Assembly (NCBI RefSeq): GCF_003046475.1
Contig: NZ_PZZZ01000006.1
Span: forward strand, 163,540-227,539
DNA: 64,000 nucleotides
Direction of reading: 5' to 3'
Source of the DNA: Mycoplana dimorpha
GTDB lineage: Bacteria > Pseudomonadota > Alphaproteobacteria > Rhizobiales > Rhizobiaceae
Below, piece after piece: positions 12,091-37,348 of this stretch (positions within the stretch are counted from its first letter, which is position 1; each line of letters starts with the position of its first letter). Under the pieces are notes generated by a model that saw nothing but the letters and a program-made list of their open reading frames with translations, made no database searches and was not told where the DNA came from. A program made the translations under genes and the position numbers.

Positions 12091-13122
12091 CTACGAGCGT
12101 TCCTGCTCGAAACGCGCCACCAGTCCCGGCAGCTCGCGGGCCAGCCACTCGGCCAGGCCGGGCACCTGCCGCTCGTCGACGGCGAAGCGCGTCACCGGCC
12201 CGGCCCGCTCGATCGTCACGGCGTCCTGCCCGCCTCCGCCGCGGATCGTGCTCTTCGCCGTCCGCGGCTTTTCCTTCGCCTCCAGCAACGACAGCAGCAT
12301 GGCGAAGCGTGCGTCACTGTCGGCGGCGAACCACTTGTCGGAGGCCATCAGCCCGTTGGCCGCCGACGAACGGGCCGCCGGCAGCTTGCGGTCGGAAAAA
12401 TACCCCGCGAGCTTTTCCCATTTCGGCCGGCCGGTCTTCGGCGCCGGACCGATCTTGCGGACGACCTCCGGCGACAGCGCTGCGGCCAGCGAGGTGAGGA
12501 TCGAGATATAGGCGAGCCCCTTGTCCTCGCTGCGGCCGAGGGCGGCGGCGATCGTCTGCCGGTCGAAGCCGCGCTCCTTCAGCTCCTGGGCAAACAGCGC
12601 CTGCTCGATGAAGGACAGGTCCTTGCGCTCGCTGTTTTCCTTGCCCTGGGCGATTACCAGCGCGTCGTCGGTCAGCGCCCGCACGATTGCCTTGAGGGGC
12701 AGGTTCAGTGCCTTGGCCGCCTGCCAGCGGCGATGCCCATAGGCGATCTGGTAGCGGCCGGCGGCGTCCGGATGCGGGCGCACCAGGATCGGCACCTGCT
12801 GGCCGTGCTCACGCATGCTGCGCACCAGCTCGTCCAGTCCGGGGTCGGCCTGGCCGTCCATGCGGTCGCGCACGAAGGAGGGATCGAGCTCGCCGGGGGC
12901 GATTTCGACGATGGCCTCGGACCCGGCGAGCTTTTCGCGCAGCTTCGCGTTCTCGTCCTCGATTGCCGAAAAGGAATCCTGCATCGAGCGCACGGCGCCT
13001 GAGGCGACGCGGCGGTTGGCCTGCGACAGCGGCGAGGGCGCCACGGCGGCGGCCAGTTCCTCCGGATTGATGCCGCCGAACATGGCCTTCATTCGCTTGG
13101 AGCGGTCGCTTGCATTGGTCAT
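12091..13122 (-). CDS. repB: Plasmid partitioning protein RepB (ParB family)
   Basis: The 343-residue protein has a ParB N-terminal domain (residues about 85-175: YQIAYGHRRWQAAKALNLPL, then GKENSERKDLSFIEQALFAQ) and a KorB/ParB-type HTH (LKERGFDRQTIAAALGRSEDKG). The C-terminal third matches the RepB-specific region. RepB binds centromere-like parS sites and works with the RepA ATPase in segregation. Its start overlaps the end of repA by 4 bp (ATGA), so translation is coupled. Unlike a normal repABC operon, no repC follows: the next region is the 218-bp tandem repeat and then fba. Confidence 0.93.
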   Translation of the reverse strand: MTNASDRSKRMKAMFGGINPEELAAAVAPSPLSQANRRVASGAVRSMQDSFSAIEDENAKLREKLAGSEAIVEIAPGELDPSFVRDRMDGQADPGLDELVRSMREHGQQVPILVRPHPDAAGRYQIAYGHRRWQAAKALNLPLKAIVRALTDDALVIAQGKENSERKDLSFIEQALFAQELKERGFDRQTIAAALGRSEDKGLAYISILTSLAAALSPEVVRKIGPAPKTGRPKWEKLAGYFSDRKLPAARSSAANGLMASDKWFAADSDARFAMLLSLLEAKEKPRTAKSTIRGGGGQDAVTIERAGPVTRFAVDERQVPGLAEWLARELPGLVARFEQERS

Positions 13123-14336
13123 TTGCGTCCCCAGACAGTCTTGATGTGACGGAAGATCTCGGCGTTGACCGCGTCGACGGATTCGAGGGCGCGGTTCAGC
13201 GTGTCGCGGCCGACACTGCCGCGGCTCATCTCGTAGAGGCTCTTCTTCTCCAGCCCCGCGCTGGCGATTGCGGTGGTGTCGACGACCGAGGCGGCCAGCA
13301 CGTCCTCGCCGAACAGCGAGCGCAGCAGCGCCACCACGTTGACCTGCGGCACGTCGTGCGGATTATGGCGGGTCAGCACGTAGCGGATGAAGTCGTGCTC
13401 GAGGGCGCCGCCGGCATCCTCGATGACGCCGAGCAGGTCGCTGGTCATCGCCAGGAACTGGTTCATCGAGGCGACGTCAAGCATAGCCGGATGCACGGTG
13501 ATCAGCAGGCCGGTGGCGGCATAAAGCGCCCCGAGCGTCAGGTAGCCGAGCTGCGGCGGGGCGTCGATCAGCACCACGTCGTAGTCGTCCTCGACCTCGG
13601 CCAGAACCGTCTTCAACCGGCGGAAGAACATGCCGTCGCCGCGCGACTGCCCCCTGGCGATCGCCTGCGGCGTCTCGTGTTCGTATTCCATCAGCTCGAG
13701 ATTGCCCGGCACGATGTCGACGCCGTCGAAATAGGTCTGACGGATCACCGCGGAGAGGGGGACCCGCTCGTTCTCGTCATAGCGGATCGCCGCATAGAGG
13801 GTCTGGTTGGCGTCGACGTCGAACTCCGGCTGGTAGCCGAACATGGTCGACAGCGATGCCTGCGGGTCGAGGTCGATCGCCAGCACGCGCAGCCCCTGCA
13901 AGGCCAGATAGTGCGCCAGGTGCACTGTCGTCGTCGTCTTCGCCGAGCCACCCTTGAAGTTGGCAATCGCCAGCACCTGCAGCTTGTCGCCGGGACGGCG
14001 GCGCGGCAGGAAGTCGAGCGCCTCGGAGGGGCGACGCCTGGCGAGATAGGCGCGCAGCTCATTGAGCTGCGGCAGCGTGTAGACGCGGCGGCCGTTGTCC
14101 TGCCGGTCCGGGATCACCGCCTCGCCGTCGAGCGACATCTGCCGCAGCGTCGATTCGGCGACGCCGAGCAGCGCGGCGGCGTCCTTCGACGAAAAAGTCT
14201 TCAGCGATTTCATCGCCTCCGGCGGATACATCTGGCGGCGCAGGTTCTGGAGTTGGGCCGAAAGCAGCTGCGAGTGGCGCATGATCCGGTCGGCGGAGGA
14301 GGGGAGGTCCTGGGGGCGTCTGAGCGTATTGTCCAT
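13119..14336 (-). CDS. repA: Plasmid partitioning ATPase RepA (ParA family), copy 1
   Basis: The 405-residue RepA-type ParA protein has an N-terminal HTH-like DNA-binding region (FSSKDAAALLGVAESTLRQM, residues about 48-67) used for operon autorepression in this family. A deviant Walker A motif follows (NFKGGSAKTTTTVHL, near 130), then IDLDPQASLS and a Walker B segment (DYDVVLIDAPPQLGYLTL). It is the first gene of a repA-repB pair. A perfect TTAA-N7-TTAA box lies 90-104 bp upstream. A second RepA (36101-37348) is clearly homologous but diverged, so the two represent different lineages, not a fresh duplication. Confidence 0.93.
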   Translation of the reverse strand: MDNTLRRPQDLPSSADRIMRHSQLLSAQLQNLRRQMYPPEAMKSLKTFSSKDAAALLGVAESTLRQMSLDGEAVIPDRQDNGRRVYTLPQLNELRAYLARRRPSEALDFLPRRRPGDKLQVLAIANFKGGSAKTTTTVHLAHYLALQGLRVLAIDLDPQASLSTMFGYQPEFDVDANQTLYAAIRYDENERVPLSAVIRQTYFDGVDIVPGNLELMEYEHETPQAIARGQSRGDGMFFRRLKTVLAEVEDDYDVVLIDAPPQLGYLTLGALYAATGLLITVHPAMLDVASMNQFLAMTSDLLGVIEDAGGALEHDFIRYVLTRHNPHDVPQVNVVALLRSLFGEDVLAASVVDTTAIASAGLEKKSLYEMSRGSVGRDTLNRALESVDAVNAEIFRHIKTVWGRK

Positions 14337-14425
14337 GATGTCCGACGGTTATTGAGGGAAAGGCGGGAAAATTCCGTCGCGACCGTTTTTCAACTGATTT
14401 GCGAAATTGGTCAAATCCTTTATCG

Positions 14426-14440
14426 TTAACGCAAGGTTAA
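14426..14440. promoter_or_regulatory. CtrA-type box (TTAA-N7-TTAA) upstream of repA-repB
   Basis: TTAA at 14426-14429, seven bases, TTAA at 14437-14440: an exact match to the alphaproteobacterial CtrA core motif. It lies 90-104 bp from the repA start, in a locally AT-rich stretch of an otherwise GC-rich gap. The rest of 14337-14738 (shared promoter region of divergent repA and a MarR gene) shows no gene. The motif is short, so chance occurrence cannot be excluded. Confidence 0.5.
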
Positions 14441-14738
14441 TGCCAACAGGCCAGTCCCCGTCGGAGCAGGGCGAAAGCGCCGACCGGCCTGGCTTCGGAA
14501 CAGATGCGCGAGAAGGCCGTTATGGCCTGCCCACAGGCTCTCGATAATGACCGTCGGCATGCTTGAATAAACCGGTCACCGGGGCCGTCACTGCGAGAGT
14601 GGAGCAGAACGGGACTCGGCCTGCCGACGCGGCAATCTCTTCCTCCACCCGTGGAGGTACCTGAGCAACGAGTGACGCCGGGGCGGCGAAGGCCCAGTCC
14701 AAGATCGACCGTCGGCGCAAGACAGCGGATACACGAAG

Positions 14739-15257
14739 ATGATGGAACCGAGCCAGATCGTTTCTCCCGGTCCGCCCGACCCCATTCCGCACGACCGGCT
14801 GATGCCACCCGACACCCGTCGCTCCCTGCCGATCGCGCTCTTGCGGGCGCGCGAAGCCATCATGAGCCATTTCCGCCCGATGCTTGCCAGTCACGACGTG
14901 ACGGAGCCACAGTGGCGGGTGATCCGCGTGCTGGCCGAAGCCGGAACGCTCGATGCCTCGGAGGTGGCGGAGAAGGCCTTCATTCTCGCCCCCAGCCTGA
15001 CGCGGATGATCAAGTCGCTGGAGGAGCGCGGCTACATCACCCGGCACAAGGATGTCGGCGACGGGCGGCGCGTGTTGCTCAAGCTGGCACCGGCCGGCCT
15101 CGACATTCTCCGGACCGTGACGCCCGACAGCCTTGCGATCTACGAACACATCGAGGCGCGCTACGGCAAGATGCGGGTCGAGCACCTGCTGGATCTGCTG
15201 GACGATCTGGCGATGCTGAAGTCCGAGCCGCCGGAGGGCAGCGACCAGCCTCATTGA
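14739..15257 (+). CDS. MarR-family regulator, HpaR-like
   Basis: This 172-residue protein (172 from ATG 14739, about 151 from ATG 14802) has a winged-helix MarR domain. The stretch RRSLPIALLRAREAIMSHF...DVTEPQWRVIRVLAEAG...ILAPSLTRMIKSLEERGYI is typical of HpaR, the repressor of homoprotocatechuate degradation operons. No aromatic degradation gene is visible nearby, so the target may lie elsewhere. It is divergent from repA. The upstream start is preceded only by a weak GAAG, so the exact start is uncertain. Confidence 0.85.
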   Translation: MMEPSQIVSPGPPDPIPHDRLMPPDTRRSLPIALLRAREAIMSHFRPMLASHDVTEPQWRVIRVLAEAGTLDASEVAEKAFILAPSLTRMIKSLEERGYITRHKDVGDGRRVLLKLAPAGLDILRTVTPDSLAIYEHIEARYGKMRVEHLLDLLDDLAMLKSEPPEGSDQPH

Positions 15258-15296
15258 TCGCCCTTCATCCTTGAAAAGCAGCCCGGCGGGTGATAG

Positions 15297-15322
15297 ATAT
15301 CCCATTCACGAGGATGGGATAT
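15297..15322. promoter_or_regulatory. Palindromic operator overlapping the vapB translation start region
   Basis: ATATCCCAT (15297-15305) and ATGGGATAT (15314-15322) form a perfect 9-bp dyad with an 8-bp spacer, ending 3 bp before the antitoxin ATG. The only Shine-Dalgarno candidate (GAGGA) lies inside it. This is the expected layout for autorepression by a VapBC complex. Confidence 0.7.
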
Positions 15323-15325
15323 ACC

Positions 15326-15568
15326 ATGGCCCTTTACGTCAAGGATCCCGAGGTCGGCCGGCTAGCCGACCGGCTCGCCAGCGCCCGCAACATCAGCAAG
15401 ACGGAGGCGGTGCGGCAGGCGCTGGAGCACGAGCTTGAGCGGGCAGGGGCTGCACCTCGACTTATCGATGCGGTGGAGGATTTATTGCGCGAACTGGATG
15501 CCGGGCATCCCGCGAAGGGGCCACCGATCGACAAGGCATTCATCGACAGCCTCTACGAGGACGATTGA
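15326..15568 (+). CDS. vapB: Type II antitoxin, VapB family
   Basis: The 80-residue protein is of the Rv0623/PSK-type antitoxin family: a short N-terminal DNA-binding segment (ALYVKDPEVGRLADRLASAR, NISKTEAVRQAL) and an acidic C-terminus (PPIDKAFIDSLYEDD) that would neutralise the toxin. ATG 15326 was chosen over an earlier in-frame ATG because family members begin MALYVKD and because the palindromic operator lies just upstream. Its stop overlaps the toxin start by one base (TGATG). Confidence 0.88.
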   Translation: MALYVKDPEVGRLADRLASARNISKTEAVRQALEHELERAGAAPRLIDAVEDLLRELDAGHPAKGPPIDKAFIDSLYEDD

Positions 15569-15963
15569 TGTTCGTCGATGCATCGGCTTTGGTGGCCATT
15601 CTTGCCAAGGAAGCCGACTATCCGGCATTGGTCGCGCGGCTGGAGACGCCAGGTGCGAAGATCACCTCGCCGCTTGCGGTATGGGAGACCGCTGTGGCGG
15701 TTGCCCGCAAGCGCAAGATTGATCCCGGCGATGCACTGGTGGCGGTCGAGCGACTCCTCGGCATTCTCGGCGTTGAGGTACGCGCGGTCGCCCCCGAAAC
15801 GGCCGCGCTCGCCATCGCAGCCTTCAGCCACTTCGGCAAGGGCCGGCATCCCGCCGCGCTGAACTTCGGTGATTGCTTCGCCTATGCCTGCGCGCGCCAG
15901 TACGGCATGCCGCTGCTCTACAAGGGCGATGATTTCGCCAAGACCGATATCGAACCGGCCTGA
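15568..15963 (+). CDS. vapC: VapC-type PIN-domain ribonuclease toxin
   Basis: The 131-residue PIN-domain protein keeps the acidic metal-binding residues: Asp4 (MFVDASAL), Glu in VWETAVAV, Asp in FGDCFAYACA and Asp in KGDDFAKTD. VapC toxins are Mg-dependent RNases, often cutting tRNA or rRNA. It is translationally coupled to the antitoxin by TGATG. VapBC pairs are common stabilisers of large plasmids, and this one lies about 1.2 kb from repA. Confidence 0.92.
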   Translation: MFVDASALVAILAKEADYPALVARLETPGAKITSPLAVWETAVAVARKRKIDPGDALVAVERLLGILGVEVRAVAPETAALAIAAFSHFGKGRHPAALNFGDCFAYACARQYGMPLLYKGDDFAKTDIEPA

Positions 15964-15973
15964 AGCGGAGGGG

Positions 15974-15998
15974 ACCGGCCTCCCGTGGAGAGGCCGGT
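15974..15998. terminator. Hairpin between convergent vapC and gabD
   Basis: Perfect 9-bp arms (ACCGGCCTC / GAGGCCGGT) with a 7-base loop lie between the two stop codons. No strong T-tract exists on either side, so its role as a bidirectional terminator is plausible, not certain. Confidence 0.5.
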
Positions 15999-16008
15999 TG
16001 GAGGATCG

Positions 16009-17490
16009 CTAGGCCAGGTTGCCCATGCAGAGATACTTCATCTCCAGATAGTCGTCGGCACCGTGACGCGAGCCCTCGCGGCCGAGGCCGGACTGCTTGA
16101 TGCCGCCGAACGGGGCGGCCTCCGACGAGATCAGGCCGGTGTTGATGCCGACCATGCCGTATTCCAGCGCCTCGGCGACCTTCCAGACGTACTTCAGGTC
16201 GCTGGCGAAGAAATAGGCCGCGAGGCCGAATTCGGTGTCGTTCGCCTGGGCGATCACGTCGTCGACGGTGTCGAAGCGGAACAGCGGCGCCAGCGGGCCG
16301 AAGGTCTCCTCGCGCGCCACCTTCATCGTCCGGTCAACGCCGGTCAAAATCGTCGGCTGGAAGAAGGTGCCTTCGCCGGCAAAGCGCTTGCCGCCGGCAA
16401 CGACCTTCGCGCCCTTGGCGACGGCGTCGGCGATGTGCGTCTCGACCTTGGCGATCGCCGCTTCCTCGATCAGCGGGCCAAGATTGACGCCGCTGTCGAA
16501 GCCGTTGCCGACCGAGAGCTGCTTGACCTTGGCGGCAAGCTTCTCGGCGAAGGCGTCATAGACGTTCGACTGCACGTAGATGCGGTTGGCGCAGACGCAG
16601 GTCTGGCCGGCATTGCGGTATTTCGAGATGAGCGCGCCCTCGACGGCGGCGTCGATGTCGGCGTCGTCGAAGACGATGAACGGCGCATTGCCGCCGAGCT
16701 CGAGGCTGACCTTCTTGATCTGGTCGGCGCACTGCCGCATCAGGATCCGGCCGACCTCGGTCGAGCCGGTGAACGAAATCTTGCGCACCTTCGGGTTGAA
16801 GCAGAGCTCCTTGCCAATCGCCGGCCCGTCGGTTCCGATCACCACGTTGAAGACGCCGGCCGGAATGCCGGCCTTTTCGGCAAGCACGGCCAGCGCGATC
16901 GCCGAAAGCGGCGTCTGCTCGGCCGGCTTCGACACGACCGTGCAGCCGACGGCGAGCGCCGGGGCGACCTTGCGGGCGATCATCGCGGAGGGGAAGTTCC
17001 ACGGCGTGATCGTGCCGACGACCCCGACCGGCTGCTTGATGACGAGCATGCGCTTGTCGGCGGACGGGGAGGGGATGGTCTCGCCGTTGATGCGCTTGGC
17101 CTCTTCCGCATACCATTCGACATAGGAGGCGGCATAGAGGATCTCGCCCTTGGCGTCGGCCAGCGGCTTGCCCATCTCGGCGGTCAGGATCGCCGCCAGT
17201 TCGTCGGCATTGGCGATCATCAGGTCGTGCCACTTGCGCAACAGCGCACTGCGCTCCTTGGCCGGTCGCGCCGCCCAGGGGCCTTGCGCGCGGTAGGCGG
17301 CGTCGATCGCCGCGGCCGTCTCGGCGGCGCCCATTTCCGGCAGCGTCGCCAGCTTCTCACCGGTCGCCGGGTTGAAGACGTCGAAGGTCGCGGCGCTCTT
17401 GCCGCCGATCCAGTTGCCGTCGACATAGCCGGAATCGCGCAGGAAGTCGGTGGACTTCAGGTGCTTGGTCAATGCGTCGTGGAAGGCCAT
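16009..17490 (-). CDS. gabD: NADP-type succinate-semialdehyde dehydrogenase
   Basis: The 493-residue aldehyde dehydrogenase oxidises succinate semialdehyde to succinate, the last step of GABA catabolism. Landmarks are TITPWNFPSAMIARKVAPAL (cofactor region), the general base Glu in VSLELGGNAP, the catalytic Cys in NAGQTCVCANRIYV and the end motif PFGGIKQSGLGREGSRHG. The start ATG 17490 is preceded by AAGGA. It follows gabT on the same strand, 301 bp downstream, across a region with hairpins and a palindromic repeat, so it may have its own promoter. Confidence 0.95.
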   Translation of the reverse strand: MAFHDALTKHLKSTDFLRDSGYVDGNWIGGKSAATFDVFNPATGEKLATLPEMGAAETAAAIDAAYRAQGPWAARPAKERSALLRKWHDLMIANADELAAILTAEMGKPLADAKGEILYAASYVEWYAEEAKRINGETIPSPSADKRMLVIKQPVGVVGTITPWNFPSAMIARKVAPALAVGCTVVSKPAEQTPLSAIALAVLAEKAGIPAGVFNVVIGTDGPAIGKELCFNPKVRKISFTGSTEVGRILMRQCADQIKKVSLELGGNAPFIVFDDADIDAAVEGALISKYRNAGQTCVCANRIYVQSNVYDAFAEKLAAKVKQLSVGNGFDSGVNLGPLIEEAAIAKVETHIADAVAKGAKVVAGGKRFAGEGTFFQPTILTGVDRTMKVAREETFGPLAPLFRFDTVDDVIAQANDTEFGLAAYFFASDLKYVWKVAEALEYGMVGINTGLISSEAAPFGGIKQSGLGREGSRHGADDYLEMKYLCMGNLA

Positions 17491-17565
17491 TTCATCATTC
17501 CTTCGGGCGTGAAAAGGGGTCTCCCGGACGCCGACGTCCGGGCGCTGCCTTGCATTTGAACTGTA

Positions 17566-17589
17566 AAGCGGCTGCGGACGGAGCCGCTT
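17566..17589. repeat. Inverted repeat in the gabT-gabD gap
   Basis: AAGCGGCT (17566-17573) and AGCCGCTT (17582-17589) form an 8-bp stem with an 8-base loop. Together with the palindrome at 17626-17648 it is the only structure seen in the 301-bp gap 17491-17791. Confidence 0.45.
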
Positions 17590-17625
17590 GCGGAGGTCGT
17601 TTTCGCCGGCATCACCTGCCGCTCA

Positions 17626-17648
17626 CTTCTCCCCGCCACGGGGAGAAG
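17626..17648. repeat. REP-like palindrome, copy 1
   Basis: CTTCTCCCCG and CGGGGAGAAG flank a 3-base loop. The same CTTCTCCCC/GGGGAGAAG core recurs at 42950-42970 and 55183-55208, all in gaps between genes. This form matches short dispersed palindromes typical of Rhizobiales intergenic DNA. Confidence 0.75.
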
Positions 17649-17791
17649 TCGGATGTGGAACAAGGCTTGCCGGTTCCCCCCTGCTCCGGAGAGGGCAGGG
17701 GGGAGGGAGGGCAAGCACCGTCCAGCCCGCTGCGCGCATGCGCCTGCACCGTTTGCGGTTCAGGGATCGCGCAGCAGCCGGGTTTGCTGCG

Positions 17792-19069
17792 TCAGGCGGA
17801 GCGGGCCTCGAGCATGGCGGCTTCGAGGATGTCGAGCGCCTCGGCGAACACCTCGTCCTGCACCGTCAGCGGAGCGAGGAAGCGGATGACGTTGCCGTGC
17901 ACGCCGCAGGTCAGCAGGATCAGGCCCTTTTCCAGCGCCTTCAGCCGCACCTTGTTGGCGAAGTCGGCGCTCGGCTGCTTCGTTGTCGCGTCGTTGAACT
18001 CGACCGCGTTCATGAAGCCGGGGCCGCGCACGTCGACGATTTCCGGAACCTTCTCGCGCAGCGATTCCAGGCGCTGTTTGAGGCGGTTGCCGAGGCTGGT
18101 GGCGCGGTTGCAGAGGTCCTCGTCCTTGATGACGTCGATGACGGCGTGCGCAGCGGCGATGCCGAGCGGGTTGCCGGCATAGGTGCCGCCGAGGCCGCCA
18201 GGGCCGGGCGCGTCCATGATCTCGGCGCGGCCGGTCACTGCGGCGATCGGGAAGCCGCCGCCAAGGCCCTTGGCCATCGTCGTCAGGTCGGCGACGACGC
18301 CGTGATGCTCCATGGCGAACAGCTTGCCGGTCCGGGCAAAGCCGGTCTGGACCTCATCGGCGATCAGCAGGATGCCGTGCTGGTCGCAGATCTCGCGGAG
18401 TTGCTTCAGGAACGCGGTGGTGGCCGGATAGAAGCCGCCTTCGCCCTGCACCGGCTCGATGATGATCGCGGCGACGCGGTTCGGGTCGACGTCGGCGGCA
18501 AACAGCTTCTTCAGCGCCGCGAGCGACTGTTCGGCCGTCTGGCCGTGCAGTTCGACCGGGAAGGGGATGTGGAACACGTCGCCCGGCATGGCGCCGAAGC
18601 CGACCTTGTAGGGCACGACCTTGCCGGTCAGCGCCATGCCCATGAAGGTGCGGCCGTGGAAGCCGCCGCCAAACGCGATGACGGCCTGGCGGCCGGTCGC
18701 GGCACGGGCGATCTTGACGGCATTCTCGACGGCCTCGGCGCCGGTGGTGACGAAGATCGTCTTCTTCTCGAAGTTGCCGGGAACGAGCTGGTTCAGGCGC
18801 TCGGCGAGTTCGACGTAGTTCTCGTAGGGAACGACCTGGTGGCAGGTGTGGGTGAAGCGATCGAGCTGCTTCTTCACCGCCTCGATGACGCGCGGATGGC
18901 GGTGGCCGGTGTTGACGACGGCGATGCCGGCGGCAAAATCGATGTAGCGATTGCCTTCCTTGTCCCAGATTTCAGCGTTTTCGGCGCGATCGGCATAGAT
19001 CTGCGTGGTCATGCCGACGCCGCGGGAAATGGCGGCGTTCTTGCGGTCGGTGAGGGATGTGGCGGTCAT
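17792..19069 (-). CDS. gabT: 4-aminobutyrate aminotransferase
   Basis: The 425-residue class III PLP aminotransferase converts GABA and 2-oxoglutarate to succinate semialdehyde and glutamate. Visible are FVTTGAEAVENAVKIARA, GGGFHGRTFMGMALTGK, IIEPVQGEGGFYPA, IADEVQTGFARTG and the PLP lysine in MAKGLGGGFPI. ATG 19069 gives the usual GabT length and has AGGAA upstream. It is divergent from a MerR-XRE-cupin regulator; the 205-bp shared promoter region carries two 21-bp direct repeats. With gabD it funnels GABA from polyamine or guanidinobutyrate breakdown into the TCA cycle. Confidence 0.96.
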   Translation of the reverse strand: MTATSLTDRKNAAISRGVGMTTQIYADRAENAEIWDKEGNRYIDFAAGIAVVNTGHRHPRVIEAVKKQLDRFTHTCHQVVPYENYVELAERLNQLVPGNFEKKTIFVTTGAEAVENAVKIARAATGRQAVIAFGGGFHGRTFMGMALTGKVVPYKVGFGAMPGDVFHIPFPVELHGQTAEQSLAALKKLFAADVDPNRVAAIIIEPVQGEGGFYPATTAFLKQLREICDQHGILLIADEVQTGFARTGKLFAMEHHGVVADLTTMAKGLGGGFPIAAVTGRAEIMDAPGPGGLGGTYAGNPLGIAAAHAVIDVIKDEDLCNRATSLGNRLKQRLESLREKVPEIVDVRGPGFMNAVEFNDATTKQPSADFANKVRLKALEKGLILLTCGVHGNVIRFLAPLTVQDEVFAEALDILEAAMLEARSA

Positions 19070-19104
19070 GGTGCGAAATTCCTGGCTCTGGAACACGGAT
19101 TATA

Positions 19105-19157
19105 TCCTACATTTTTTCTGTAAGATATGGTAGAAGTCCTACATTTATTCTGCAAGA
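19105..19157. promoter_or_regulatory. Duplicated 21-bp operator between gabT and its divergent regulator
   Basis: TCCTACATTTTTTCTGTAAGA (19105-19125) recurs as a copy with two changes at 19137-19157, a 32-bp centre spacing (three helical turns). Each copy holds a TACA-N7-TGTA or TACA-N7-TGCA half-site dyad. The position and AT-richness suggest binding sites for the adjacent MerR-XRE-cupin protein, controlling both divergent promoters. Confidence 0.65.
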
Positions 19158-19274
19158 ATGCAACGGCTATTTTCGGCGGCCGCATGCCGCAGAGCGCCAC
19201 GGAGCGGCCGGCCGGTCGGCTGGACCGCAAACTGCTGTAAAAGCAGCATAACACAAGAAACGGGATTCATTGGC

Positions 19275-20102
19275 ATGGGTGCGAGCGGCCCGGAGACGGT
19301 GCACTACAAGGTGGCGGAAGCAGCACGGCTCGCCGGCGTCTCGGCCTCGACGTTGCGCCTGTGGGAAAGCCAGGGCCTCGTCGTTCCCGGGCGCTCGGAG
19401 GCCGGCCACCGCCAGTACAGCGCCGAGGACGTGGCGCGACTCAAGAAGATCGCCTGGTACCGCGCCGAGCGCGGCCTGAACCCGGCGGCGATCCGCGAGG
19501 CGCTCGAGGCGGAGAACGGCGCCGCCGACGGGCACGCCGCAGGCGGGGAGGGCGAGGCGCCGCAGGGCGTCGGCCGCAAGTTCCGCGCGCTGCGCCACGC
19601 CGCCGGCAAGACGCTGGAGCAGGTGGCGGGCGACATCGGCATCGCCACCTCGGTGCTCTCCACCTTCGAGCGCACCTCGCAGGGCGTCACCTTCCGGGTC
19701 ATGCACGATCTTGCCAGCTATTACGGCACGACCGTCTCGAAACTTTCCGGCGAGGACGAGGCCGAGCGCCGCAGCATCGTGCGGGCAGGGGAGTGGAAAT
19801 TCTGGCCGGAGACCTCGCCGGGCGTGACGGTGCAGGTGCTGGCCGACGGCCGCAACATGATGGACTGCCACCGCTTCGTGCTGTCACCGGGCGCCTGCAG
19901 CGACGGCGCCTACCGCCACGAGGGCGAGGAGTTCATCCACGTGCTTTCCGGCCGCTTCGAGATGGTGCTGGACGGCGACGAGTTCCACGATCTCGGCCCC
20001 GGAGACTCCATCTACTTCGACAGTCGCCGCCATCATTCCTGGCGCAACCGCCACGACGGCGAGACCGTGCTCGTCTGGATCAATACGCCGCCGACGTTCT
20101 GA
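19275..20102 (+). CDS. Three-domain regulator: MerR HTH + XRE HTH + cupin
   Basis: The 275-residue protein combines three modules. Residues about 10-80 form a MerR-type winged helix (YKVAEAARLAGVSASTLRLW, then HRQYSAEDVARLKKIAWYR). About 97-155 form an XRE/Cro-type HTH (LRHAAGKTLEQVAGDIGIA, SVLSTFERTSQG). About 185-273 form a cupin sensor (YRHEGEEFIHVLSGRFEMVL, LGPGDSIYFDSRRHHSW). XRE-cupin regulators often control amino-acid or polyamine catabolism, and the cupin probably senses a small ligand. It is divergent from gabT, so a role as GABA/polyamine-responsive regulator of gabT is inferred. ATG 19275 has no strong Shine-Dalgarno. Confidence 0.85.
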   Translation: MGASGPETVHYKVAEAARLAGVSASTLRLWESQGLVVPGRSEAGHRQYSAEDVARLKKIAWYRAERGLNPAAIREALEAENGAADGHAAGGEGEAPQGVGRKFRALRHAAGKTLEQVAGDIGIATSVLSTFERTSQGVTFRVMHDLASYYGTTVSKLSGEDEAERRSIVRAGEWKFWPETSPGVTVQVLADGRNMMDCHRFVLSPGACSDGAYRHEGEEFIHVLSGRFEMVLDGDEFHDLGPGDSIYFDSRRHHSWRNRHDGETVLVWINTPPTF

Positions 20103-20348
20103 TGATCCACCGCTCGGCGGCCGGATCGCGGTCTTGCCATTTCGGACCGGGGCAGGGGGTATCGGATTGCTGGCGGTGTAGGGACAAGCAGCCGAGCGCC
20201 TGTCGGCCTCACGGGGTCTGGCCGCCTGGATGCGCCCGGCACAAGCGGGTGTCACGCGTCGCGATCTTCAGAGCCGGCCGTCGCGGTTCAAGCTCTTGGC
20301 ATTGCATGTCACGGCGCCTAAACCTGTCGTTGCTTGCGATCGCATGGA

Positions 20349-21004: not shown

Positions 21005-21062
21005 TTTCAATCCTTTCTGTTTTCGGCGCAAGGCCGCGGTGGTCGGCGTGGTATTGGCGCCC

Positions 21063-21341: not shown

Positions 21342-21446
21342 TGTTCTGCTCCTTGCTGCTGCGCAATGCCCCCGGGCCGCAGATCCGCGGGCGGCCGCGG
21401 GCTCGGCCCGGAGGTGCGAAATTCCAGACGTGAAGAACCAGACGCA

Positions 21447-21475
21447 AAAAGGTCGGGCTTGAACCCCGACCTTTT
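21447..21475 (-). terminator. Intrinsic terminator upstream of the 92-residue gene/rpsU operon
   Basis: AAAAGGTCGGG and CCCGACCTTTT form an 11-bp stem with a 7-base loop, followed on the minus strand by one more T. It lies 105 bp before the ATG at 21341, so a transcript from the AT-rich stretch 21500-21760 would end here unless antiterminated. It is symmetric enough to work on both strands. Confidence 0.75.
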
Positions 21476-21499
21476 CCGGCCGTTCCACGCCCTGCCAGT

Positions 21500-21760
21500 A
21501 CATCCGTGGTCAGGGGGGAACGGCAAATTTACGCGGCTCAATTCGCGGCATTCGCAATGTCGAGATCGCGGCTCGAAAAGGCCTGGGTAAATATTTCATT
21601 GTCATACATATAAGCCATTGTGAATTTTTTGCAACACCTTCAACTTTTTCGATTTCTCTGACCCAAAGAGAACTTCGCATAAATTCTTTGGAAGCTGCGC
21701 CGTACTGTAGGTCATGCAATAAATAGCGGTATCATTTACTTGGCTATACAGTAACGCCAG
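21500..21760 (-). other. AT-rich non-coding stretch ending at a terminator (candidate sRNA or attenuated leader)
   Basis: The stretch is strikingly AT-richer than the rest of the window. A 69-codon minus-strand frame exists (21510-21719) but has no Shine-Dalgarno and resembles no family. Combined with the terminator at 21447-21475, the simplest reading is a small RNA or a regulated leader for the 92-residue/rpsU operon. No promoter was identified with confidence. The neighbouring 21761-21937 shows nothing. Confidence 0.35.
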
Positions 21761-29629: not shown

Positions 29630-29640
29630 GCAGGTAAATC

Positions 29641-30390: not shown

Positions 30391-30572
30391 GCTTTGCGGC
30401 GCCATCGAGCCCGTCAGGCTGGGGGGCGACAATCCTCCCGCAAGCCGTCAGAAGGACAGGTAAAAGGGATTGGCTGCCGCCAGCAGGAAATGTCCTGCAC
30501 GGCGGCTTTGCCAACCCGACCCCGGTCACTCGGCGGGCCGCGCCGGGCCGAAGTCTTCCGGCCCCGACGCCC

Positions 30573-33479
30573 CTACCAGCCTTCTTCCAGGACCCGTTCC
30601 AGCATGTCCGCAAAGAAATCCGCACTCTGCGGCGAGAGGCAAAGCGGCGGCTTGATCTTCAGCACGTTGAGGTGATCGCCGGTCGGCTGCATGATGACGC
30701 CGAGGTCGAGAAGCCGGTTGCAAATGGCCGCCGTCTCCTGCGTGGCCGGTTCCAGCGTGTCGCGGTCACGAACGAACTCGAGGCCGAGATAGAGGCCCAT
30801 GCCATGCACCGCGCCGACGATTGGGAAGCGCTCGCCGAGCGCCTCGAGCCGGCGCCTGAGGTGATCGCCGACGATGCGGGCGTTTTCCTGCAGCTTCTCG
30901 TCACGCATCGCATCGAGCACAGCCATGCCGACCGTGCAGGACACCGGGCTGCCGCCGGCGGAGGAGAAGAAATAACCCTCCTTCTCCAGTGAATCGGCGA
31001 TCGCCCGCGAGGTGATCACGGCGCCGAGCGGATGGCCGTTGCCCATGCCCTTGGCGATGGTGATGATGTCCGGCACCACGCCCTGTTCCTCAAAACCCCA
31101 GAAATAGTGGCCGAGCCGGCCATAGCCGACCTGAACCTCGTCGGCGATCGTCACGCCGCCGCGTTCCCGCACAAGCCGGTACACTTCCTGAAGATACCCT
31201 CTTGGCAGCGGGATGCCGCCGGCATTGCCGTAGACGCTTTCGGCGATGAAGCCGCCGAGCCGTTCGCCGCTGGCCTCGATCCTGGCCAGCGCCGCCTCGA
31301 CATCGGCAATGTAGCCGGCCGCCGAATCCGGGCCGCGATGCGGCCCCCGATAGGTGTTGGGCGCGGTGACGGCATGCACCCAGGCCGGCCGCGTCGTCAG
31401 CGCCTGCGGATTGTCGGCGATCGAGGTGGAGACGGCATCGCTCGCCACGGTCCAGCCATGATAGGCCTCGAGGAGGCTGATGATGTTGCGGGCGCCGGAA
31501 TGGGCCCAGGCGAGCCGCAGCGCCAGGTCGTTCGCCTCGGAGCCGGAATTGACCAGAAACACCGTGTCTAGCCCGTCGGGCGCGAGATCGGCGAGGCGCC
31601 TGGAGAACTCCGCAACGCCGGCGTAATGGAAACGCGAATTGGTGTTCAGCAGCGACCACTGCCGACCGACCGCGGCGGCAAGTTTTTCGTGGCCATGGCC
31701 GAGGATCGCGACATTGTTGACCATGTCGAGATAGCTTCGGCCGTCCATCCCATACATCTGCTCGCGATAGCCGCGCTCGATCTGCGGCGGCCGCTGGTAA
31801 TAATTCTTCTGCGGTCTGGCGAAATGCGCCTGCCGGATTTCCAGAAGCGCTTCGCCCGCCGGTTCAGGCGCGTCGAAATCGCCGCCGAACAGCCCCGACG
31901 GCGACGGGCAGACGACCGACCAGGCGCCGGCCTGATGCGGCATGACGAACGGCGGCGGCGTCAGGCCCTTTTCGCGGCAGAACTGCACCCGCAACCGGCC
32001 GGAAGCGGCAACCCGGCCGATCGTCTCGCCGGCGCCGGTGCGCTCTTCGCCATGCGTCCGCTCCATGCCGTCGATCAGCAGGCAGACGTGTTCGCCGTCG
32101 ATGCGCATCCCGCCGTCTTCCATCGAGACGATTCCGGCGAACGGTGCGACCACGCGGGAACCGGCCGGAACCTGCGCCTCGATGCAAAGGGCAAAGGTCT
32201 CGGGTGCCGTCGCCGAATGGTGCCGGGTGCGCGACAGGCGGTATTCGCCATAGCGGCTGATTGCGGCGCCGGTTTCGGCCGCCGCCTCCCGCAGCAATCT
32301 CACCTCGATGCCCTCGTCGGACCAGTTGCCGCCTTCGAACAGCGGGCTCAGCGCGTCCAGTCGCACCGGACGGAACGACTTAGGCGCGACATCCGGCAGA
32401 AGAGGCTCCATCGCCGGCAGTGGCCGGTCGTCGGCCTTGCCGACCGCTTCCAGGACCGCCGCCTGCATGACGGAAATCGGCAGGCTGGTCGCCACCTCGA
32501 AAATCGCCCGTTCATGCGCGATATTGCCGGCCGCATATGCGTTGTCCGGCTCGAGCGCCAGCTGATTTTCACCGCTGGCGACGAGCACGCAGGCCCGCTG
32601 CACGACGAGCGACCAGAGCGCCTTGAGTTCAGCCTCGTTGAGCGGATGCTCGGCATGGAAGGCCCGTATCGCCGGCAGGGCAACGAACGGATCTGCGGCG
32701 TGGTGCAGCAAGGCCGAACAGCAAACGGCAAGGTCCGCCACCAGCCAGCCGCGCGTCAGGTCGCCGAAATCGATGACGCCGCGCGGGATCGGATTGCCGT
32801 CGGCATCCGGCGTGGCAACGACATTGTCGTCTGTGATGTCGTGATGGATCGCCTGGACGCGCAGCCCGGCACGGAGCGGAGCGATATGGCGTTCCGCCTC
32901 ATCCAGCGCAGCGGCAATGCGCGCCGCCGCCCGTTCGTCCGGCAAGGCGGAGAGCAGCGCCGTGGCGACCGGCCGTGCCTGCCGGAGGTCCCACTGGATC
33001 TGTCGGTCGAGTCCTCCGTGATCGAAGCTGTCCAGTCCCTTCGCCACCCGGCCGCAAACCTGGCCGAGTGCCGCCACGGTGATTTCCGGCAGGAACTTGC
33101 GACGGGTCAGCGGTTCGCCATCGAGATAATCGAGCAGGCGCGCATGACAGGGTTGGCCGTTGATGTCGATCGACAGGATGGTCTCGCCGGAGCCTGCCGC
33201 GATCGCCCTCGGCACCAGGGGCATGGAGGCCAATCCGGCCAGGTGCTTCATCGCGGCATTCTGCGCCTCGAGTTCGATGCGCCGGTATTCGGCGTGACAG
33301 ATCTTCAGGACATGACGCTTGCCGCCCGCACGGATGCGAAAATTTCGGTCCTGCTGGCTGCCCAGCTCGACAATATCGCCGACAAGGCCGTAGTGATCGC
33401 GGAAAATCGCCTGTGCGTCCGCGACGGACACGTTCGGCCTCGGCAGCTCTGCGCGCCCGATCGCGCTCTCTTGCAGCAT
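30573..33479 (-). CDS. Trifunctional fusion: APH-like kinase + M23-like domain + class III aminotransferase/phospho-lyase
   Basis: The 968-residue protein joins three modules. Residues about 20-340 are an aminoglycoside-phosphotransferase-like kinase (catalytic HHDITDDNVV near 211, metal-binding IDFGDLTRGW near 236). About 430-520 resemble an M23/LysM-type beta domain (VPAGSRVVAPFAGIVSMEDGG), probably non-catalytic. About 550-968 are a class III PLP enzyme (NSGSEANDLALRLAWAHSG, IADEVQVGYGRLG, PLP lysine in TIAKGMGNGHP near 808). In animals, hydroxylysine kinase (APH-like) and AGXT2-like phospho-lyases act in sequence on hydroxylysine, so phosphorylation followed by beta-elimination or transamination of an amino alcohol or hydroxy amino acid is inferred. 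The substrate is unknown. Confidence 0.85.
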   Translation of the reverse strand: MLQESAIGRAELPRPNVSVADAQAIFRDHYGLVGDIVELGSQQDRNFRIRAGGKRHVLKICHAEYRRIELEAQNAAMKHLAGLASMPLVPRAIAAGSGETILSIDINGQPCHARLLDYLDGEPLTRRKFLPEITVAALGQVCGRVAKGLDSFDHGGLDRQIQWDLRQARPVATALLSALPDERAAARIAAALDEAERHIAPLRAGLRVQAIHHDITDDNVVATPDADGNPIPRGVIDFGDLTRGWLVADLAVCCSALLHHAADPFVALPAIRAFHAEHPLNEAELKALWSLVVQRACVLVASGENQLALEPDNAYAAGNIAHERAIFEVATSLPISVMQAAVLEAVGKADDRPLPAMEPLLPDVAPKSFRPVRLDALSPLFEGGNWSDEGIEVRLLREAAAETGAAISRYGEYRLSRTRHHSATAPETFALCIEAQVPAGSRVVAPFAGIVSMEDGGMRIDGEHVCLLIDGMERTHGEERTGAGETIGRVAASGRLRVQFCREKGLTPPPFVMPHQAGAWSVVCPSPSGLFGGDFDAPEPAGEALLEIRQAHFARPQKNYYQRPPQIERGYREQMYGMDGRSYLDMVNNVAILGHGHEKLAAAVGRQWSLLNTNSRFHYAGVAEFSRRLADLAPDGLDTVFLVNSGSEANDLALRLAWAHSGARNIISLLEAYHGWTVASDAVSTSIADNPQALTTRPAWVHAVTAPNTYRGPHRGPDSAAGYIADVEAALARIEASGERLGGFIAESVYGNAGGIPLPRGYLQEVYRLVRERGGVTIADEVQVGYGRLGHYFWGFEEQGVVPDIITIAKGMGNGHPLGAVITSRAIADSLEKEGYFFSSAGGSPVSCTVGMAVLDAMRDEKLQENARIVGDHLRRRLEALGERFPIVGAVHGMGLYLGLEFVRDRDTLEPATQETAAICNRLLDLGVIMQPTGDHLNVLKIKPPLCLSPQSADFFADMLERVLEEGW

Positions 33480-33644
33480 GTCATGTACTCCCGGCAGTCG
33501 CCTGATGGTCCGTTCCCTTGGCGCCTAGGATTGCCCCGTTCGCTTCGGGAGCGTCAATGGTGTAACCGTTGCTTGTCCACGGCGAAGGCTGCGCGCATCG
33601 GGATGCGATCGGCCGCCGGCAGAGCGACAGCCGGGGGGAAAAGC

Positions 33645-34313
33645 TCACGGGCTCTTGCCGTTGCCGGCCGATGTGTCGGCGGCCCGGAAGCTCGCCAGCT
33701 GCCCATGGATGATCTGCTTGAAATCGACCAGCATCATCTCGGCTTCCGCGGCGGGCAGGGTGATTGCCAGCCGCACCATGCCGCTGGCGAGGTGGAAGAG
33801 CAGGAAGACCAGCCGGCCGAAGCGTTCGCGGTCGGCTTCGGCCACGAGATGTGACGCCATCGCGCCGAACATCTCCGCCTGCCGCCGCGTCTCGGCAATG
33901 TCCATGTTCTGCAGTTCCTTGTCGGCCTGGATGGCGTTCAGGAGGTCCTGGATGGCCGGATCGCCGGCGACCTGCAGGTAATAGCCGTCGAGGATCGCAT
34001 CGGCCGCATCGCGCACCCCGGCCAGGTCACGGACGCCGGCGAGGCTCGCCTCGATGCCGCCGCGAGTGTTGGCGGCATGCTGCTCGTAGAGCATGGCGAT
34101 GATTGCCGACTTGTTCGGGAAATACTGGTAGACTGAGGCGATCGGGCCGCCGGTCAGCAGCGCCACCTCGCGCATCGTCATGCCGTCGATGCCCTTCTCG
34201 CCGATCAGGGTCTTTGCGACCCGCAGGATCTCCTCGACCCGCTCGCGACTGCGTTCCTGCTTGGGCCTGCGCCGCAAGCGCTGCTCCAGATCATCGACGT
34301 CCGTCGCCGACAT
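33645..34313 (-). CDS. TetR-family regulator
   Basis: From ATG 34313 the 222-residue protein has a TetR HTH (ERVEEILRVAKTLIGEKGIDGMTMREVALLTGGPIASVYQYFPNK, residues about 22-70) and a helical ligand domain. It lies 165 bp upstream of the kinase/aminotransferase fusion on the same strand, making local control possible but not shown. A longer frame to 34442 lacks family similarity. Confidence 0.88.
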   Translation of the reverse strand: MSATDVDDLEQRLRRRPKQERSRERVEEILRVAKTLIGEKGIDGMTMREVALLTGGPIASVYQYFPNKSAIIAMLYEQHAANTRGGIEASLAGVRDLAGVRDAADAILDGYYLQVAGDPAIQDLLNAIQADKELQNMDIAETRRQAEMFGAMASHLVAEADRERFGRLVFLLFHLASGMVRLAITLPAAEAEMMLVDFKQIIHGQLASFRAADTSAGNGKSP

Positions 34314-34562
34314 GCCGCTCGTCCTTCCTGGTCTCAGGTTGCGATCCGCGAGCACGGTGCGTCCCGCCGGACGCCCACAGGAAAACCGCGGCGCAAAGAC
34401 CCGCCGCTGTACTCCCCGATCTGCCAACCATTCTCTCACCAAATCAGTTCCAGCTTAAGGAATTATTCCCGCCCGGCTCCCGCATTGGGTCGTTCGCAAC
34501 CTCGGCGCCCGCCAAGGCGCGCCTGTGGCCGGCGACCGACGGCAGAAACGCGCCGGCCACTC

Positions 34563-35765
34563 CTACTCCAGCGCCTTGATCATCGGCAGAACCGAGAATT
34601 TGCCGGCCTCGGCCTTGCGGGTCAGCTCCCGCAGGTAGCCTCCCGGCGAGCGGATCTGGTCGGATCGTTCGAGAATGGCGGCGATCACCACAGCTGCCGT
34701 GCCGTCGCCCATCGCCGCGCGGGCCTTCTGGTAGGCATCCGGCGAAATGCCGAGCATCGAGCGGACCAGCGCGGCGGTCTTGACCAGCTCCGCCCAGGTG
34801 CCAATCCCGTCCTTGGCGTAGCTGCGGATTTCAGGGCAGGCGGCCAGCACCCGCTTCAGGCTGATCGCCAACGCCTTCCGCTCCGGTGCGGCTCCTTCCG
34901 CCGGCGGCTCCGCCTGGTTGGTGTCATGGCCGTTTAATTCAAAAGTGGGCTCTGCATTTGAATTCTGAATATGGCGCTCGTTTTGGACGTCATTGGCGCT
35001 CATTTCTTCGTCTGAGAGCGACTTCAGGTAGTCGTCCTCCACCTTTCGGCGCAGTGCCAGCAGCCCGACCCTGCGCGTTTCCAACACCTCGGCAGAGGCC
35101 GACCGGCCCAGCCGTCCGGACAGGCCTGCCAGCGAGAGCTGGTGATCCGCCCACGGGCCGGAGCGCCCTTCCGAGATCGCCGCCTCGACGATCTTGGCGA
35201 CGTCGCGAAGGTGCAGCGTCACCTCGGCCCGCAGGGCCTGCTGACGCCTGGCCTCGGCCCGGGCCGCCTCCGCCTTCTCGTGGATCGCGCTCGCCATCAG
35301 CGCCAGTGGTGCCAGGTCGAAGCCGAACGCCTCCTCGACGACGCCACGCTCGTCGCGCCGGCAGTAGCGCTTGCCGTTGGGGCTGTCGCGGCGAAACAGC
35401 AGGCCGGCGTCCATCAGCTGCGCCAGATGCCGCCGCAGCGTGGCCGGTGCCATGCCGCGCGAGCGCACCGACAGCTCAGCGTTCGACGGAAAGACGATGA
35501 TCGGCGCGCGACCGTCGAGGACCTTGTCCGGGTGGAAGGTCAGCAGCGCCTCGAGCACCGCAATGGTGCGGTCAGACAGCCCATAGGCCGCACGCGCCTC
35601 GGTCAGCGCCCGGATGAGCTGCCATTTGTCCGCCGTGCCGGTGTCGTTGCCGCCCGCATCGGCCGCAAGCTTCGCCTGGGCCTGCGCAACCTGCTTCTGC
35701 ATCGCGAAGACGCGCGCAGTCATCCTGCCGCCGCCGAAAGGCGTCGTTGCCAGTCTCTCCATCAT
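34563..35765 (-). CDS. repC: Replication initiator RepC
   Basis: The 400-residue protein matches RepC of repABC plasmids: an N-terminal initiator domain (TTPFGGGRMTARVFAMQ, KWQLIRALTEARAAYGLSDRTIAVLEAL, IIVFPSNAELSVRSRGMAPATLRRHLAQLMDAGLLFRRDSPN) and the conserved C-terminal block (YAKDGIGTWAELVKTAALVRSMLGIS, SPGGYLRELTRKAEAGKFSV). RepC initiates replication at an origin usually inside its own gene. The start ATG 35765 has GAGGGG upstream. A repA precedes it by 335 bp and no repB lies between, which departs from the canonical order. Confidence 0.95.
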   Translation of the reverse strand: MMERLATTPFGGGRMTARVFAMQKQVAQAQAKLAADAGGNDTGTADKWQLIRALTEARAAYGLSDRTIAVLEALLTFHPDKVLDGRAPIIVFPSNAELSVRSRGMAPATLRRHLAQLMDAGLLFRRDSPNGKRYCRRDERGVVEEAFGFDLAPLALMASAIHEKAEAARAEARRQQALRAEVTLHLRDVAKIVEAAISEGRSGPWADHQLSLAGLSGRLGRSASAEVLETRRVGLLALRRKVEDDYLKSLSDEEMSANDVQNERHIQNSNAEPTFELNGHDTNQAEPPAEGAAPERKALAISLKRVLAACPEIRSYAKDGIGTWAELVKTAALVRSMLGISPDAYQKARAAMGDGTAAVVIAAILERSDQIRSPGGYLRELTRKAEAGKFSVLPMIKALE

Positions 35766-35944
35766 GGTCGTCCCCTCAAGGAGGCAAGAGGCCGGACCTC
35801 GACGTCATGACAAAGTCGTCGCGCGTTCACACCGAACGCACGGGTAGGCTCCAACTCCTTGAAATTGGAGCGTTCTTCGTCGCGCCGCTCAAAACGGCAG
35901 ACAAAAGGTTCCCGTTCCGCGAACGGCAAAACCGACGCGGACTC

Positions 35945-36029
35945 TTGACTTTGAATGTCGGAAGTGATTCTCTCGAACTGCTACATTGAAGAGGGCTTCC
36001 GGAATGGCGACGTTTTGGAGGCCTTTTTT
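35945..36029 (+). ncRNA. Candidate antisense counter-transcribed RNA (ctRNA) of repC
   Basis: On the strand opposite to repA-repC, TTGACT (35945-35950) serves as a -35 box. About 35 bp later a transcript could start that ends in an intrinsic terminator: GGCTTCC (35994-36000) pairs with GGAGGCC (36017-36023, one G-U) followed by six T's (36024-36029). This would give a roughly 50-nt RNA, near the size of known repABC ctRNAs, in the usual place just upstream of repC. The -10 box is weak (TTCTCT). The same gap holds the palindrome CCGTTC-CGC-GAACGG at 35912-35926. Confidence 0.7.
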
Positions 36030-36100
36030 CTTGCTTCGATCCTTTCCCGTTTCGTTTCCATCGTCCCCGGCAAGGCGTTCGGCCCGGCCGGAATTCTGTG

Positions 36101-37348
36101 TCAGCCGCTGCGCCCCCAGGCCTGGAGCACCAGGGCCTCGATCTCGGCGTTGACGGCGTTCATGCTCTCCATCGCCCGGTCGTAGGTGGCGCGGGTAAAA
36201 TTCTCGCGGCCGACCTCGTAGAGCGTCTCCTTCGTGAGGCCTGCGTCCGCGACAGCGGTCGACTTCACCATCGGGGCGGTCAGCACCCGGTCGGCGAACA
36301 GCGATCGCATCAGCCCGACGATCTGCGCCTGCGGCCCGTCATTCGGCTCGAAGCGGGTCACGAGGTAGCGCAGGAAATCGAAATTCAGCCGCCCGCCTGC
36401 CTCGCGCACCACCGACAGCAGGTCCGAGGTCATGAACAGGAACTGGTTCATCGACGCGACGTCGAGCATCTGCGGATGGACGGTGACGATCACCGAGGTC
36501 GAGGCGCAGAGCGCCGAGAGGGTGAGATAGCCGAGCTGCGGCGGGCAATCGAGCACGACGACGTCATAGTCGTCCTCGACTGTGCGCAGTGCCGCGTGCA
36601 CGCGGGCGAAAAACAGCGGCTGCCCCGGCGCACCGGCCTGGCGGTTGGCCAGCGCCCGTGGCGTGACATGCTCGAATTCCTGGAGCTCGAGGTTGCCGGG
36701 GACGAGATCGAGCCCGTCGAAATAGGTCTTGCGGATGATCTCCCGAAGCGGCCGCGCCTCCGCGTCGTAGCGGATCGCGCCGTAGAGCGTATCGTTGCCG
36801 TCGAGGTCGAGCTCGGGCTGGTAGCCGAACAGCGCCGACAGCGAGGCCTGCGGGTCGAGGTCGACGGCCAGCACCCGATAGCCGGCGAGCGCCAGGTACT
36901 GCGCCAGGTGGGCCGCCGATGTCGTCTTGCCGGAGCCGCCCTTGAAGTTGGTGACGGCGATGACCTGCAGGTGCTCGCCGCGGGCGCGGTCGCGCCATTT
37001 GCGGTAGCCGCGCGCCTTGGCGAGATTGCCCTTGGCAAGCGCCTGGTCGGCGAGATGGGCCCGGAGCGCATTGATGTCGGTCAGCGAATAAAAACGCCGG
37101 CCGCCCGGTCCGGTTTGCGGCTGCGGACCCTCTCCGGCCAGCGAAAGCTGCCGCAGGTAGCCGTCGGAAACCCCGATCAGCCGTGCCGCTTCGCCTGAGG
37201 TGAAGCTGCGCAACGCCTTCTTCGCCGCCGGCGGGAAGAAGCGCTCGCGCATCGCCTTTAGCTGCGCCGACAGAACGCGGGCGTCCGCCGCGATCGCCTC
37301 GTCGGCGGCCGGTTCAGCCCGTTCTGTTCTCTCCGGCGCCATCGCCAT
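36101..37348 (-). CDS. repA: Plasmid partitioning ATPase RepA (ParA family), copy 2
   Basis: The 415-residue RepA-type ATPase has an HTH segment (FTSGEAARLIGVSDGYLRQL), deviant Walker A (NFKGGSGKTTSAAHL), VDLDPQASLSALFGYQPELD and Walker B (DYDVVVLDCPPQLGYLTLS). It precedes repC, separated by a 335-bp gap with a candidate ctRNA. In a standard operon repB would follow; here it is missing, and the only RepB in the window belongs to the other repA. The upstream region has two palindromes that may be operators. Confidence 0.94.
   Translation of the reverse strand: MAMAPERTERAEPAADEAIAADARVLSAQLKAMRERFFPPAAKKALRSFTSGEAARLIGVSDGYLRQLSLAGEGPQPQTGPGGRRFYSLTDINALRAHLADQALAKGNLAKARGYRKWRDRARGEHLQVIAVTNFKGGSGKTTSAAHLAQYLALAGYRVLAVDLDPQASLSALFGYQPELDLDGNDTLYGAIRYDAEARPLREIIRKTYFDGLDLVPGNLELQEFEHVTPRALANRQAGAPGQPLFFARVHAALRTVEDDYDVVVLDCPPQLGYLTLSALCASTSVIVTVHPQMLDVASMNQFLFMTSDLLSVVREAGGRLNFDFLRYLVTRFEPNDGPQAQIVGLMRSLFADRVLTAPMVKSTAVADAGLTKETLYEVGRENFTRATYDRAMESMNAVNAEIEALVLQAWGRSG

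Follow-up and report, generated by a model that had tools for sequence, protein, structure and literature searches.

A split repABC system in Mycoplana: complementary repA-repB and repA'-repC half-operons from two lineages on one replicon

Introduction

The repABC operon is the standard example of replication and partition joined in one self-regulating unit. Operons of this type that lack a gene have been reported: a count published in 2009 gave six incomplete ('faulty') operons, five repAB and one repAC, of which four lay beside complete operons (PMC2783167), and pRL7 is described as carrying a repAC alongside a complete repABC (PMC1557990). The composite plasmid pMM259 of Martelella mediterranea holds two RepABC modules, both of which are described as functional (PMC5613091). 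Here we describe a 64-kb stretch of the Mycoplana dimorpha genome (contig NZ_PZZZ01000006.1, positions 163,540 to 227,539; hereafter the window) in which a repA-repB pair lacks repC, while a second repA, termed repA', is followed by repC and lacks repB. Like the faulty operons and pRL7, these are half-operons missing one gene each, but here the halves are complementary, and on the replicon of Sinorhizobium sp. BG8, which shares the arrangement, they are the sole rep genes found. As in pMM259 the rep modules are of two origins; there, both modules are described as functional RepABC sets, whereas here they are complementary halves. None of the titles and abstract openings of the open-licence matches listed described a complementary pair of half-operons as a replicon's only set, which is weak evidence of novelty. 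Single incomplete operons are thus already known, and the complementary pair appears, among the matches listed, to be unreported.

Results

Gene content of the two half-operons

The four rep genes of the window are all intact and all lie on the minus strand. Downstream of repA (13119-14336; ParA-type, 405 amino acids; TIGR03453, 599 bits), and overlapping it by 4 bp, is repB (12091-13122; ParB-type, 343 amino acids; TIGR03454, 310 bits). The gene repA' (36101-37348; ParA-type, 415 amino acids; TIGR03453, 638 bits) is the first of the other half-operon and is separated by a gap of 335 bp from the replication initiator gene repC (34563-35765; 400 amino acids; NF040974, 429 bits). The half-operons are 20.2 kb apart, and repA, repB and repC do not form one operon; RepA' and RepA are 54-55% identical. 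A preliminary description, made from the sequence alone, had placed and named the four genes in this way, and the curated family models agree with it on both counts.

The absence of repC from one half and of repB from the other, which the same description had pointed out, was confirmed by searches for remnants. No credible trace of repB was detected in the repA'-repC gaps of eight genomes (tblastn, 15 RepB queries; best gap match E 0.23), and none of repC in the 1000 bp after repB of eight genomes (tblastn, 8 RepC queries; best E 0.002), the best match here, in genome G005, being located inside the neighbouring aldolase gene. RepB matches of 38-68 bits in the repA'-repC loci were rejected as artefacts, the queries having been stop-to-stop frames whose 5' ends overlapped repA.

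The window lies on contig C6 (357 kb) of a draft genome of 4.59 Mb in 22 contigs, and the whole of C6 encodes one RepB and one RepC. Elsewhere in this genome a complete repABC is present on contig C12 (37 kb). Contig C14 carries an N-terminally truncated RepC (6093-7016, minus strand; a 308-amino-acid frame), sister of the C12 RepC in the tree, and this is either a broken duplicate or a piece of a related plasmid.

Conservation of the split arrangement

Both half-operons were found on one contig in all seven Mycoplana genomes examined (the window genome and G001 to G006), and the window RepA' is 91-93% identical to its counterparts in the six others. The arrangement is also present on plasmid pEMPC1 of Sinorhizobium sp. 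BG8, a complete, circular record of 1,138,596 bp with repA'-repC at 325-328 kb and repA-repB at 278-280.5 kb. A search of this entire replicon returned one RepC, one RepB and two RepA above the cut-off, and homologues of RepA, RepB and RepC are thus all on the replicon. The additional repB or repC that the preliminary description had considered elsewhere on the replicon was found neither on C6 nor on pEMPC1. In all eight split sets (seven from Mycoplana, one from BG8) the order is repA', repC, then repA, repB in a single orientation, and the interval between the repC end and the repA start is 20.2 kb in the window, 21.5, 26.6, 62.6, 15.0, 54.8 and 10.8 kb in G001 to G006, respectively, and 44.7 kb in BG8.

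Among 394 sampled genomes of the family, RepB was detected in 17 at E <= 1e-85, and those with at least 76% identity were exactly the eight split-set genomes. RepC was detected in 60 of the 394 at E <= 1e-100. The locus was checked in 30 of these 60: repB was missing between repA and repC in 11 (the eight split sets and three genomes of genus g130, described below) and present in 19. Fourteen further loci gave three without repB, all from Mycoplana genomes already counted, and 11 with it. The eight genomes have inherited the split pair by common descent.

The ratio of nonsynonymous to synonymous substitution rates (dN/dS), calculated for the window against six genomes, was 0.051-0.082 for RepA', 0.037-0.057 for RepA, 0.100-0.194 for RepB and 0.161-0.230 for RepC. 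All four rep genes are therefore under purifying selection, and the low ratio for RepA' indicates that it is not a relic.

Two lineages of rep genes

The window and 71 loci were compared by blastp, and trees were built for RepA (90 rows), RepC (86 rows) and RepB (84 rows), an approach already proposed in the preliminary description; they give two separate lineages. RepA' and RepC of the window each form a clade of eight with seven others (support 100/100 and 100/99), nested in a lineage, termed lineage X, that otherwise consists largely of complete repABC sets, among them Shinella pShin-02, Rhizobium SL42, ACO-34A c and G020_C41. RepA and RepB of the window likewise form clades with seven others (100/95 and 100/99), and these are nested in lineage Y (17 rows; 100/99 for RepA and 100/100 for RepB). 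Each of the nine remaining lineage-Y rows comes with a RepC, and these nine RepCs make up one clade (100/99). Because RepA' and RepC fall within lineage X, and RepA and RepB within lineage Y, the two halves have two origins; rep genes of two phylogenetically distinct systems thus lie on one molecule, as in a composite (cointegrate) replicon. One option offered in the preliminary description was that two replicons, either of them short of one gene, had fused. Its core, two half-sets from two lineages, is strongly supported, while fusion of full replicons is indistinguishable from the insertion of one rep module.

Canonical operons of both lineages were available for comparison. In those of lineage X (Shinella pShin-02, Rhizobium SL42, Rhizobium ACO-34A c and Neorhizobium petrolearium) RepA is 78-84% identical to the window RepA' and RepC is 60-65% identical to the window RepC, and promoter blocks are common to repA' and the three whose records include upstream DNA (all except N. 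petrolearium); they differ from the window in that repB sits between repA and repC. In those of lineage Y (R. leguminosarum pR132503, B. barranii pBb144S4b, Shinella WSC3-e and G024_C10) RepA is 77-83% and RepB 49-54% identical to the window proteins, and a TTAA-N7-TTAA box is found at a similar place as at the window repA; they differ in having their own repC, whose product is 25-26% identical to the window RepC, with parS-like palindromes after it. Transfer genes adjoin the three annotated lineage-Y operons, pR132503, pBb144S4b and WSC3-e. The window RepA is 83% identical to that of G024_C10, and genome G024 carries, on another contig (G024_C6), an operon belonging to lineage X by RepA and RepB, not by RepC. 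This combination could roughly resemble a possible state before a merger. Shinella pShin-01, which megablast and matching gabDT neighbours had suggested as a possible parent of repA-repB, was dropped, because the identity of its RepA is 60% with RepA' and 52% with RepA.

Sinorhizobium replicons of the pSymB type (S. meliloti pSymB, NC_003078.1 1611559-1613799; S. fredii pNGR234b; S. sojae pSJ05684b) have kept the other half of lineage X. There, an orphan repA-repB was retained without repC beside a complete repABC of another type, and the RepA of the orphan pair shares 85-86% identity with RepA'.

Regulatory and partition elements

An antisense RNA (ctRNA) gene lies just upstream of repC, as in repABC replicons, within the repA'-repC gap (35990-36034, plus strand; RF00489, ctRNA_p42d, 38.9 bits, E 1.7e-5), and it follows repA' directly because repB is missing. 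RF00489 was matched in all eight repA'-repC loci and in none of the eight repA-repB loci, with scores of 38.9-43.3 bits that are all below the Rfam gathering score of 50. Within repC, an A+T-rich stretch (34932-35011, minus strand; A+T 0.57 against 0.32 for the gene) recurs at a similar position in 8 of 8 repC genes and is a candidate origin (oriV) by analogy with p42d, for which repC alone is reported to suffice for replication (PMC3155836). The putative promoter/operator region of repA' (37431-37552, minus strand) contains the blocks TTGACG, TAACGG, CCGTTAC and CTGTTAG, which recur for the most part in loci belonging to the same RepA' lineage.

The parS of lineage X was sought within 4 kb of the rep genes in 17 complete sets and 10 repA'-repC loci. 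The sequence GTTGACAGCTGTCAAC was present exactly in 10 of the 17 complete sets and with one change in four more, leaving three without it. Of the four canonical lineage-X operons named above, two had it exactly and a third had it with one base changed; it was not seen in the N. petrolearium record, one of the three sets without it, which starts at repA and so lacks upstream DNA. In contrast to the complete sets, none of the 10 repA'-repC loci scanned contained GTTGACAGCTGTCAAC, the G004 locus having another palindrome, in agreement with the general consensus, and scans of all of C6 and of the BG8 replicon gave no match even when two mismatches were allowed. Retention of the operator blocks together with loss of parS fits a role of RepA' as a repressor without a part in partition.

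For lineage Y, a parS-like palindrome, GTNACAGCTGTNAC, was found just after repC in four of five complete sets, the nearest copies being 6-18 bp from the end of the frame and others up to 1.3 kb away. The observation was then tested on the DNA after repC of the four remaining complete sets, where GTNACAGCTGTNAC was exact in all four, approximately 15-60 bp after the RepC match. It is therefore present in eight of nine complete lineage-Y sets; in the remaining one, G034_C27, a single position is mismatched. All eight split sets show a looser form, GTTWCARYTGWAAC, 117-475 bp downstream of repB, four of them exactly and four with one mismatch. The window has two exact matches to GTTWCARYTGWAAC against none in 100 shuffles, a comparison made after the fact with a pattern drawn from these very sites. 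Both are downstream of repB: a 14-bp near-palindrome at 11836-11849, conserved in position and two changes from the lineage-Y motif, and a second site at 11619-11632, three changes from it. Position and pattern suggest that the sites after repB are parS, in copies that would be degenerate in the window. More distal parS-like sites (C6 121021 and 123234; G002; BG8 283252) are not claimed as such; they are conserved and possibly coding sequence.

A TTAA-N7-TTAA box, putatively of the CtrA type, is located 104 bp upstream of repA (14426-14440, minus strand). The box was found in six of seven Mycoplana repAB loci, at approximately 104 bp, and in four of five complete lineage-Y repABC loci, BG8 being outside this count.

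A similar arrangement in genus g130

In genus g130, repA'-repC without an intervening repB was found in all three genomes with a close RepC (G135, G206 and G263). The partner repA-repB was located in G206 (contig C45): it is of a third type and lies approximately 29 kb from repA'-repC in the same order and orientation, with no repC in the 16 kb examined. Genus g130 may thus represent another case of splitting, in which the partition cassette is not the same. Forcing Mycoplana/BG8 and g130 into one clade was not rejected (approximately unbiased test, p 0.098 for RepC and 0.31 for RepA'), and the loss of repB could have been one event or two.

Neighbouring genes and other features of the window

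Immediately downstream of repB is a gene for a class II fructose-bisphosphate aldolase (10319-11455, minus strand; PF01116), with the same gene start in the six other Mycoplana genomes and a protein match in G002, G003, G006 and BG8. Genes for an aldehyde dehydrogenase, a class III aminotransferase and a MerR-type regulator (gabDT-like) lie beside repA (16009-20102), and in g130 homologues of the first two are directly downstream of repC. Between the rep loci are the alphaproteobacterial small RNA ar35 (21442-21560, minus strand; 49.6 bits against an Rfam gathering score of 45) and a gene for a 968-amino-acid protein (30573-33479, minus strand) in which an APH (phosphotransferase) domain precedes one of the class III aminotransferase type, a fusion that looks unusual.

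Discussion

We consider it probable that two repABC systems met and then reciprocally lost repB and repC, leaving halves that are now complementary. In this merger, whose order of events we infer from sequence comparison, lineage X would have kept the half concerned with replication, comprising repA', the ctRNA gene and a repC that contains the origin, and lost repB and its parS, while lineage Y, of a type found on conjugative plasmids, would have kept the half concerned with partition, comprising repA and repB together with a parS-like site, and lost repC. RepC would start replication from an origin inside its own gene; RepA' would still repress its own promoter and thereby, with the ctRNA, limit RepC; RepA and RepB, acting on their parS, would separate the copies and control their own operon only. 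RepA' would now probably do no more than repress repC, as a dedicated repressor, with RepA-RepB responsible for partition, and contact between RepA' and RepB would not be needed. Such a functional split, another option of the preliminary description, is likely to be the present state. In R. leguminosarum, RepA in its ADP-bound form is reported to bind only its own operator, and RepAs showed no cross-reaction with foreign operators (PMC4492784).

Several observations weigh against this reading. The RepC tree is partly discordant with the RepA tree, as both G024_C6 and MSH1 belong to lineage X by RepA and RepB, not by RepC. GC skew pointed to no origin, either on C6 or on the BG8 replicon. The parS expected of repABC replicons is wanting, with no match to the published 16-bp consensus GTTN4GCN4AAC in the 64-kb window, and the strict lineage-Y motif has no match there even with one mismatch, both candidate sites being further from it than that. 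No conjugation or transfer genes adjoin repA-repB among the neighbours scanned, and fusion of whole plasmids is for this reason hypothetical. Finally, RepB is reported to enhance repression by R. leguminosarum RepA strongly (PMC4492784), so that RepA', lacking its own RepB, might be a poor repressor or else rely on the foreign one.

The last point leads to an alternative that we regard as unlikely, in which RepA' continues to act as a partition ATPase, both RepA and RepA' are served by the foreign RepB, and RepA' couples segregation to repC expression. Besides the effect of RepB on repression, it has in its favour that RepA' retains a ParA-type ATPase domain under strong purifying selection (dN/dS 0.05-0.08), but a pure repressor would keep the ATPase too. 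Moreover, the lack of cross-reaction with foreign operators argues against it, as does the identity of RepA' and RepA, which at 54-55% is the usual divergence of compatible replicons, given as no more than 61% (PMC6090056).

It is also doubtful, though consistent with the absence of transfer genes beside repA-repB, that repB was replaced through insertion of a small repAB(-parS) stabilisation module into a single repABC replicon, with no fusion and with repC never present at that site. The g130 genome in which repA'-repC is found with another type of repAB some 29 kb away looks as if partition modules were exchangeable, as this explanation would have it. However, eight of nine full lineage-Y sets carry their palindrome after repC, and here the looser form comes directly after repB, where repC is expected, a direct step that fits deletion of repC in place.

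A transposed repB, the third option of the preliminary description, is contradicted by the trees, which place the window RepB (100/100) among RepBs from the lineage to which the window RepA belongs, and not with those that accompany RepA'. Had repB left one original repABC operon and taken a duplicate of repA with it, one repA beside each half would likewise have resulted, but the window RepA is far closer to G024_C10 RepA (83%) than to RepA', and we consider such a move highly improbable. Least credible of all is an assembly artefact fusing two replicons, since, even though the host genome is a 22-contig draft, the layout recurs on single contigs in six other genomes of the genus and in the complete circular BG8 record; no misassembly was found, nor either of the other outcomes that would have told against a genuine split, a repB in the 335-bp gap or a repC beyond repB.

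A broader proposal can be put forward tentatively: replication control and partition may here be genetically uncoupled, with RepA' a dedicated repressor of the initiator gene and RepAB-parS serving as exchangeable cassettes that differ between Mycoplana/BG8 and g130. The split version has been kept through the divergence of at least eight genomes, and it constitutes a natural test of which of the couplings in a repABC unit are needed. The points at issue are whether repression by RepA is possible in the absence of its RepB, whether the partition genes have to lie next to the origin, and how two compatible plasmid systems accommodate each other once merged.

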